Shown here: positions 22,045-28,186 of the stretch, piece by piece
How the letters are laid out: each line of letters opens with the position of its first letter
Numbering within the stretch: the first letter of the stretch is position 1
Origin: Candidatus Pacearchaeota archaeon
GTDB taxonomy: Archaea; Nanobdellota; Nanobdellia; UBA10117; JABICX01
Reading direction: 5' to 3'
NCBI GenBank assembly: GCA_017608025.1
Contig: JAFCGM010000004.1
Location: forward strand, 154,744 to 193,015
DNA length: 38,272 bases
The notes under the pieces: generated by a model
The model's database searches: none
What the model was told of the DNA's origin: nothing
What the model saw: the letters and a program-made list of their open reading frames with translations, nothing else
Position numbers and translations under genes: made by a program

Positions 22045-22116
22045 GCCCTGGTAGCTTAGTGGTGGAGCGTACGGCTGTTAACCGTAAGGTCGAAGGTTCG
22101 AGTCCTTCCCAGGGCG
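22045..22116 (+). tRNA. tRNA-Asn (GTT)
   Basis: Acceptor strands GCCCTGG (22045-22051) and CCAGGGC (22109-22115) pair fully, with discriminator G. The anticodon stem TACGG/CCGTA encloses the loop CTGTTAA with anticodon GTT. The T arm holds GGTTCGAGTCC. CCA is not encoded. It begins a three-tRNA run after cdc6. Confidence 0.95.
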
Positions 22117-22119
22117 CAC

Positions 22120-22232
22120 GACCCGGTAGCTTAGCCTGGTTAGAGCGCTGGTCTTATAAGATCCCTTCCACGAGGAAGATAACATGTATTTGGGAAAACC
22201 AGAGGTCTCGAGTTCAAATCTCGACCGGGTCA
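22120..22232 (+). tRNA. tRNA-Ile (TAT anticodon) with a 38-nt intron at 37/38
   Basis: Acceptor strands GACCCGG and CCGGGTC pair fully, with discriminator A. The anticodon stem CTGGT (22148-22152) pairs with ACCAG (22198-22202). The intron is 22159-22196. It is bounded by a clean bulge-helix-bulge: outer stem CTGGT/ACCAG, central 4-bp helix CTTA/TGGG (with two G-U pairs), bulges TAA and AAA, and a weak inner helix GAT/ATT. Splicing leaves the 7-nt loop CTTATAA, anticodon TAT at 22155-22157, reading AUA. There is no long variable arm, so leucine is excluded. It starts 3 bp after tRNA-Asn. Confidence 0.88.
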
Positions 22233-22331: not shown

Positions 22332-22406
22332 GCCCCTATGGTGTAGTCCGGTCAATCATCCTGGCCTTTCGAGCCAGGGACGTGAGTTCAAATCTCGCTG
22401 GGGGCA
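22332..22406 (+). tRNA. tRNA-Glu (TTC)
   Basis: Acceptor GCCCCTA pairs with TGGGGGC (one G-U), with discriminator A. The anticodon stem CTGGC/GCCAG encloses the loop CTTTCGA, anticodon TTC. The T arm contains GTTCAAATC. CCA is not encoded. Its last 19 nt plus 9 flanking bases are repeated exactly 187 bp downstream. Confidence 0.95.
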
Positions 22407-22602
22407 CTGCCTTTTCTCACTCCCTTTTCTTTTCAGAAAAGAAAAGGTAAGTTTCCAAAAGAAAATAAATTCTTTCGCGAACCTTTCTTTCTAAAAAAAG
22501 GCTCTGTAAGTTGCCAAAAAAGATTGTTCTCTTTCGAGAACATTTTTCTTACAAGAGAAAGGTTCATGTGGGTATCAAATCTCGCTGGGGGCACTGCCTT
22601 TT
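22388..22602. repeat. Duplicated 3' end of tRNA-Glu (28-bp direct repeat pair, att-like)
   Basis: The 28 bp at 22388-22415, covering the T-arm end, acceptor strand, discriminator and 9 downstream bases of tRNA-Glu, recur exactly at 22575-22602. The second copy lacks the rest of the tRNA. Such repeats arise when an element integrates into a tRNA 3' end (attL/attR) or by local duplication. The roughly 160 bp between them hold only hairpins: CTTTTCTTTTCAGAAAAGAAAAG and GTTCTC-TTTC-GAGAAC. Confidence 0.85.
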
Positions 22603-27262: not shown

Positions 27263-28186
27263 TTAATCTTTTAATTTAAGGTATTCACAAACCCGGCAGA
27301 CGTCCCTGCTTGTCAGCTCTCCACATTCCTTGCACTTTTTCAAGTCTCCTGTTTTCCTTTTCCTTACCAGATCTCCAATTTCATCACCAATTTTGACAAT
27401 TGAAAACTCAATTCCAGGTCTTGTTTTTTTCATTTCTTCCAAATAGTTCATGAAATTAAAGCGGAAGCTTCCAACTCTGCAGCTGCATGGTTTTGGATTG
27501 TACTCAAGTCCGATATAGTCAGCATAGGCCTTGACTTCATTTTCCGGAACTCTTCTTAAAATCTTTATTCTTTGAGTAAATCCCTCTCTTTTTGGCAGTG
27601 ACTTTGCGCCCATTGCAGAGAACCTTCTTAAATCTCCTCTTGAGAAATTCATCAAAAAGCTTTGCGCCTCATCAGTTAAATTATGACCTGTTGCCAACTT
27701 GTTGAATCCTTGCTCTCTTGCTGTTTTGTTAAGAATTCTTCTCCTCAAAACACCGCAAACAGAACACTTATTAATTCCTAATTTTTCTGAAACTTTTGCA
27801 ATATCTTTCATTGAAAAGTCAAATTCTTTTTTGAATTTCAAAACCTCAAACTCAACACCTGCTTTTTTACAAGCATTCTTACAGACTTTTATATTTTTTG
27901 AAGAATTCCAGTCATCTCTGTCAACGTAAAATGCCTTTATTTTAATATCCTTGTGAGCTATATATGTTGAAATAAAGTTGAGCATAACCAGAGAATCTTT
28001 ACCACCAGAAATTGCCAGCGCAATTCTGTCGCCATCTTCAATAAGCTTGTTTTCCTTTATGTTTCTTGAAATTCTTTGCTCCTGAAGCTGGATAAAACAC
28101 GTCTTACATAACCCTTTTCCAAGATAAGGAAGAAAGAATTCTGCATTTTTGCTACACTTAGCGCAAGTTTTTATTTTATTTTTCAT
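27263..28186 (-). CDS. tRNA 2-thiolation enzyme, TtuA/Ncs6-type
   Basis: An adenylating tRNA thiolase of the TtcA/TtuA/Ncs6 group. The PP-loop is SGGKDS at residues 60-65. The catalytic-site cysteines appear in CSVCG and in CSCRVGS. GHNLTDEAQSFLMNF is the group's conserved helix. Two zinc fingers flank the core: CAKC...CKTC at the N-terminus and CKEC...CRVC at the C-terminus, as in TtuA. The target could be U54 (TtuA, thermophiles) or wobble U34 (Ncs6), and the sequence alone does not decide. The gene diverges from the histone-fold gene and ends near tRNA-Leu. Confidence 0.85.
   Translation of the reverse strand: MKNKIKTCAKCSKNAEFFLPYLGKGLCKTCFIQLQEQRISRNIKENKLIEDGDRIALAISGGKDSLVMLNFISTYIAHKDIKIKAFYVDRDDWNSSKNIKVCKNACKKAGVEFEVLKFKKEFDFSMKDIAKVSEKLGINKCSVCGVLRRRILNKTAREQGFNKLATGHNLTDEAQSFLMNFSRGDLRRFSAMGAKSLPKREGFTQRIKILRRVPENEVKAYADYIGLEYNPKPCSCRVGSFRFNFMNYLEEMKKTRPGIEFSIVKIGDEIGDLVRKRKTGDLKKCKECGELTSRDVCRVCEYLKLKD

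Follow-up and report, generated by a model that had tools for sequence, protein, structure and literature searches.

The window, a stretch of 38,272 nucleotides from the genome of a Candidatus Pacearchaeota archaeon, contains at 22120-22232 an intron-bearing tRNA gene that belongs to a cluster of tRNA genes (Table 1). Beside the tRNA-Glu gene a perfect 28-nt direct repeat was found (22388-22415 and 22575-22602), a copy of the 3' end of this gene together with its flank, which resembles an insertion scar. The window also encodes the large subunit of DNA polymerase D, topoisomerase VI, Orc1/Cdc6, NMD3, arginyl-tRNA synthetase, a histone-fold protein and the start of the 16S rRNA.

Table 1. Features at and around the tRNA-Ile(UAU) gene, in window coordinates (^, splice cut; BHB, bulge-helix-bulge).
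Feature	Position	Strand	Basis
tRNA-Asn(GUU), adjoining, same cluster	22045..22116	+	ARAGORN, Rfam
5' exon of tRNA-Ile(UAU), positions 1-37	22120..22158	+	Rfam tRNA match
BHB central helix, 5' strand CTTA	22153..22156	+	Homologous-intron comparison
Anticodon TAT (UAU), positions 34-36	22155..22157	+	Stem CTGGT/ACCAG, loop CTTATA^A; register from 136 homologous introns
38-nt BHB intron at 37/38, starts AGAT, base 2 is the conserved G	22159..22196	+	Comparison with homologous introns
Intron hairpin CTTCC-ACGA-GGAAG	22165..22178	+	Folding
BHB central helix, 3' strand TGGG (two G-U pairs)	22191..22194	+	Homologous-intron comparison
3' exon, positions 38-73, discriminator A73	22197..22232	+	Rfam match
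tRNA-Glu(UUC), adjoining, same cluster	22332..22406	+	ARAGORN, Rfam
NcsA/TtuA-like tRNA thiolase gene	27263-28186		Best solved relative 6scy

Identification of a tRNA-Ile(UAU) gene

The Rfam tRNA model (RF00005) matched exactly the stretch 22120-22232 (E 4e-10; 57.9 bits, cutoff 29). The match places 39 inserted nt at the anticodon loop. The full-length match indicates that the gene is complete and that its product has the tRNA fold. The spliced loop reads CTTATAA, which gives the anticodon UAU, and the tRNA has the short variable arm and the A73 of an isoleucine tRNA. The gene was missed by ARAGORN in its default mode, which allows no introns. With introns allowed it was called tRNA-Ser(TGA), the intron being put after position 36. 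That the gene encodes a tRNA-Ser(UGA) is hardly credible, however. The body type refutes this identity, as the long variable arm is absent, and the genome already has four serine tRNAs with long arms. Besides, the cut lies at 37/38 in the homologues, and ARAGORN itself names those of genomes G005 and G016 Ile(TAT). The Rfam match and the splice register in relatives (see below) uphold the sequence-only reading of this locus, which had proposed a tRNA-Ile with the spliced loop CTTATAA and the anticodon UAU.

Splice register and geometry of the intron

In the BHB reading of the gene, the central helix is formed by C32 U33 U34 A35 and the intron bases UGGG. All four positions are paired (one G-C, two G-U and one A-U), and the helix is flanked by the 3-nt bulges UA^A and AA^A, each cut two bases in. 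An identical mature tRNA is obtained when both cuts are moved by one base. The register was examined in 136 homologous introns by setting the loop bases CTTA against the four intron bases that adjoin the 3' bulge; G112, in which the parse is uncertain and an extra intron is apparent, and G190, which has no intron, were left out. The helix was paired in 94% of the 544 cells, against 18-51% when it was slid by 1-3 bases, and the introns had all four pairs in 107 cases and at least three in 133. The splice register is therefore supported by the pairing that is kept across relatives, and not by free folding. The minimum-energy fold of the whole gene contains no BHB and pairs GGUCU with AGAUC, and in the 55-nt core the BHB-like folds fall short of the best one by about 3 kcal/mol. 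The comparison supports the splice sites that had been proposed from the sequence, and the description of the intron as a canonical BHB is a fair one, although 22120-22232 is a weak copy, with G-U at two of the four central positions and a free fold that favours a different structure.

Additional introns were apparent in some of the homologues. In the genes L229 (G044), L233 (G102), L236 (G072), L249 (G024) and L248 (G112) the bases that precede CTTATA find no partners in the 3' stem. A further intron within the anticodon stem is suggested by this, and the parse of these five genes is less certain. The Ile(UAU) genes of 35 genomes, for instance L205 (G004), L181 (G054) and L186 (G062), have a second intron in the T loop: their T stem (5/5) and acceptor stem (7/7) were restored only when 13-99 nt were omitted. 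The T arm was intact in 80 of the 138 genomes with an identified tRNA-Ile(UAU), and 23 were without a call. An intron in the T arm is also reported for the tRNA-Ile(UAU) of a red alga (PMC9602550).

Absence of TiaS and use of AUA codons

The usual archaeal route to AUA is a tRNA-Ile(CAU) that is converted by TiaS with agmatine, giving agmatidine. In the window's genome (G000) the TiaS profile PF08489 had no match. The same was true of all 194 sampled genomes of the phylum, many of which are rated 98-100% complete, and of 50 other genomes that were reached via loci with tRNA-Ile(UAU) (31 of them Micrarchaeota by title). The profile was found each time in the four archaea among the 14 control genomes. 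G000 is an incomplete draft (91.5% complete, 34 contigs), so that absences in this genome alone are weak evidence. Two CAU tRNAs were seen in it: one is elongator-Met-like, and the other is an initiator with an AGCGGG start and a GGG/CCC stem; a third, Ile-like CAU tRNA was not seen in this 91.5%-complete draft.

Nearly complete tRNA sets were read for G000, G005 and G016, and partial ones for G004 and G008. Two CAU tRNAs were present in each of G005 and G016, together with Ile(GAU) and an intron-bearing Ile(UAU). A CAU pattern that covered intronless genes, and would miss intron-bearing ones, was run on 47 genomes and gave at least one match with a 5-bp stem in 27, of which nine had two and one had three. 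The third CAU match in G016 was ascribed to chance because it is not among the tRNA matches of that genome. G004, a single contig rated 100% complete, gave few tRNA matches, several of them intron-bearing; its tRNA genes may be fragmented to an unusual degree.

The codon ATA accounts for 337 of the 841 isoleucine codons (40%) in 21 genes of the window, or 38 per 1000 codons, in line with the remark of the sequence-only reading that the genome is rich in ATA. Use of the TiaS/tRNA-Ile(CAU) route, with the UAU gene as a spare or dead copy, is very improbable. A missing gene could hide in an incomplete draft, but the absence of TiaS from all 194 genomes contradicts such a route phylum-wide, and the UAU gene shows no damage and has conserved homologues. 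Neither the tiaS gene nor the CAU isoleucine tRNA, whose place the UAU tRNA had been proposed to take, was encountered in the genomes searched.

Distribution of tRNA-Ile(UAU)

A strict pattern for the 5' half of the tRNA was matched in eight of the 194 genomes of the phylum, the records of which are named Nanoarchaeota, Woesearchaeota and Pacearchaeota. It failed because GGAGC stands in place of AGAGC, and it was then relaxed. The relaxed pattern was matched in 121 of the 194 genomes; G020, G091 and G003 were dropped, their matches not being of the Ile type. A second pattern, applied to 76 genomes, was matched in 25, of which 20 were accepted and five were judged to be chance (G127, G113, G030, G045 and G094). 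In total, tRNA-Ile(UAU) was identified in 138 of the 194 genomes (118 by the relaxed and 20 by the second pattern), and neither pattern gave an accepted tRNA in the other 56.

The genes L172 (G091) and L215 (G003) have a long variable arm and the loop CTTATGA, that is, the anticodon UAU with G37, and are Leu- or Ser-like. They could be contamination; if genuine, they would mean that AUA is read as another amino acid.

A narrower pattern was matched by 97 stretches in 84,980 species genomes, which partly overlap the 194. The names of these records were Woesearchaeota, Pacearchaeota, Nanoarchaeota, Micrarchaeota, Diapherotrites and 'Candidatus ainarchaeum', in addition to one Marsarchaeota and one 'bacterium' record, which may have been misbinned. 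The tRNA sequence of L323 (Candidatus Pacearchaeota) equals that of G180, the sampled genome from the window's order.

A UAU anticodon had been regarded as a solution reported in few archaea, and this is true of the literature that was found. According to a 2018 survey of 167 archaea, tRNA-Ile(UAU) occurs only in Korarchaeum and Nanoarchaeum, as species-specific gains (PMC6000648), and in the tRNAscan-SE 2.0 paper the lack of tRNA-Ile2(CAU) in these two is attributed to their UAU tRNA (PMC8450103). A literature search on AUA decoding and tRNA introns in DPANN groups, with preprints and most subscription papers outside its reach, retrieved no report on the wider phylum. As a view of the tRNA itself, however, rarity is too narrow: tRNA-Ile(UAU) is general in the phylum and is also present in Micrarchaeota and Diapherotrites.

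Retention and sequence of the intron

An intronless copy of tRNA-Ile(UAU) was found in one of the 138 genomes (G190). With matched patterns for intronless genes in the 194 genomes, Ile(GAU) was matched in 75 genomes, 68 of which were left after matches without an anticodon stem had been removed by eye, and Ile(UAU) in ten, of which one was real. The second base of the Ile(UAU) intron was G in all 136 introns, and bases 1-4 were mostly [T/A]G[A/G]C, chiefly TGAC or TGGC. In 54 rows of introns from other tRNAs, a rough control in which some rows are misplaced Ile(UAU) or chance, base 2 was A in 21, G in 15, T in 11 and C in seven. The same features were seen in the scan of the species genomes, where all 45 copies from records named Nanoarchaeota, Woesearchaeota, Pacearchaeota or 'archaeon' had an intron with G at base 2 (one of them, L293, parsed weakly). 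Copies without an intron numbered 11 of 31 in Micrarchaeota, where two of 20 introns had the G, one of two in Diapherotrites and ainarchaeum counted together, and three of the 17 further stretches. The comparisons suggest that the Ile(UAU) intron is kept, and constrained in sequence, far beyond other tRNA introns in the phylum. The intronless copies of G190 and of Micrarchaeota rule out a universal need for it.

Introns as short as 17 nt were found, and a box C/D or H/ACA guide in the intron is in general unlikely given this length. A further short intron motif (53 of 136 introns; shuffles 19.4 +/- 4.1) was given no weight because it had been chosen after looking. The Pus1/TruA family (PF01416) was absent from G000 and was detected in two of the 194 genomes, both of one genus, and in 12 of the 14 controls. 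Pseudouridylation by a Pus1-like TruA homologue was rejected on this account, and any modification served by the intron would need another agent.

Discussion

The findings strongly support a decoding role for tRNA-Ile(UAU). We consider it very probable (about 0.93) that the gene encodes the isoleucine tRNA with which the organism reads AUA, and that this is the common solution of a whole phylum in which the usual TiaS route has been lost. The precursor would carry the 38-nt intron directly behind the anticodon; after cleavage of the BHB by the splicing endonuclease, the exons would be joined to a short-armed tRNA with the anticodon UAU and A73, which is presumably charged with isoleucine. The anticodon would pair directly with AUA, for which reason the CAU-plus-TiaS route would not be needed and could be lost, and some change of U34 would keep AUG unread.

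In encoding UAU directly in place of tRNA-Ile2(CAU), the organism resembles Nanoarchaeum equitans and Korarchaeum cryptofilum with their tRNA-Ile3(UAU) (PMC8450103, PMC6000648). Those accounts present the tRNA as uncommon (two of 167 archaea), whereas in the present sample it was identified in 138 of the 194 genomes of a single phylum, and it also occurs in Micrarchaeota and Diapherotrites. The archaeal tRNA-Ile2(CAU) with TiaS solves the same problem, the reading of AUA but not AUG; unlike in that system, neither TiaS nor a third CAU tRNA was found here. Bacterial tRNA-Ile3(UAU) is not known to have a BHB intron or splicing machinery of this sort. In Bifidobacterium, Mycoplasma and Neorickettsia it likewise replaces CAU plus modification by a direct UAU (PMC8450103). 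The eukaryotic tRNA-Ile(UAU) has the same anticodon, likewise carries an intron at 37/38 and must also exclude AUG (PMC4090602, PMC9602550). This kind of tRNA is already known; what stands out is its use across the phylum, the lack of TiaS and the constraint on the intron.

What holds the intron in place can be accounted for in more than one way. The chances are about even that it is an old, vertically inherited intron, the start of which is conserved to suit the splicing endonuclease or local pairing, and the rarity of its loss would be down to chance or to a slow rate of loss. Pairing of intron bases 2-4 with the bases upstream of the central helix amounts to 68% of cells, and to 13-53% in slid registers, the similar intron starts throughout the phylum fit common descent, and in Micrarchaeota the Ile(UAU) intron is often missing. 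On the other hand, the sister tRNA-Ile(GAU) is without an intron in 68 of the same 194 genomes, and the invariant G is not common to other tRNA introns. Inheritance together with the needs of splicing is nevertheless the most economical account. A possible, though rather doubtful, alternative is that the intron is kept because an enzyme other than Pus1, or a guide RNA, acts on U34/U36 before splicing and recognises the junction UAUA-[U/A]GRC. This could explain why Ile(UAU) was seen without an intron in a single genome and Ile(GAU) in 68 genomes of that set, and why base 2 is always G here and varies in other tRNA introns. Korarchaeum cryptofilum also has an intron in its UAU tRNA and none in its GAU tRNA (PMC6000648). 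A precedent is found in yeast, where Pus1 forms pseudouridine 34 and 36 of tRNA-Ile(UAU) only with the intron present (PMC4090602, PMC9602550). Unlike in the yeast system, Pus1/TruA is absent from 192 of the 194 genomes, the intron lacks the G or is itself lacking in most Micrarchaeota copies, G190 lives without it, and no candidate enzyme or guide was found. The wider proposal that the phylum lost agmatidine early and that, independently of eukaryotes, the intron became the required substrate for a change of U34/U36 before splicing, by an agent unrelated to Pus1 acting at the junction CUUAUA-[U/A]GRC, is doubtful. If it were so, the intron would almost never be lost because it is required as the substrate of modification.

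A 2-thio group on U34 (s2U34) favours A over G in the codon. The NcsA-like thiolase encoded in the window could in this way limit wobble, and among solved structures it is closest to 6scy, the [4Fe-4S]-dependent U34-tRNA thiolase (E 8e-51). That misreading of AUG is prevented by 2-thiolation through this candidate is nonetheless unlikely: its NcsA score lies below the NCBIfam cut-off (164 vs 500 bits), the known substrates of archaeal NcsA are the Lys, Glu and Gln tRNAs, and nothing ties the thiolase gene to tRNA-Ile(UAU).

How AUA can be decoded as isoleucine while AUG is spared is a classic question in the study of the genetic code, which bacteria, archaea and eukaryotes each answer with a different modified base. 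If a large share of the smallest archaea encode UAU directly, agmatidine can no longer stand in textbooks as the archaeal solution without a major exception, and the view of 2018 that the tRNA is a species-specific gain would have to be revised. With a near-obligatory intron and an invariant base, it becomes testable whether archaea, like yeast but with a different enzyme, need the intron for the protection of AUG.
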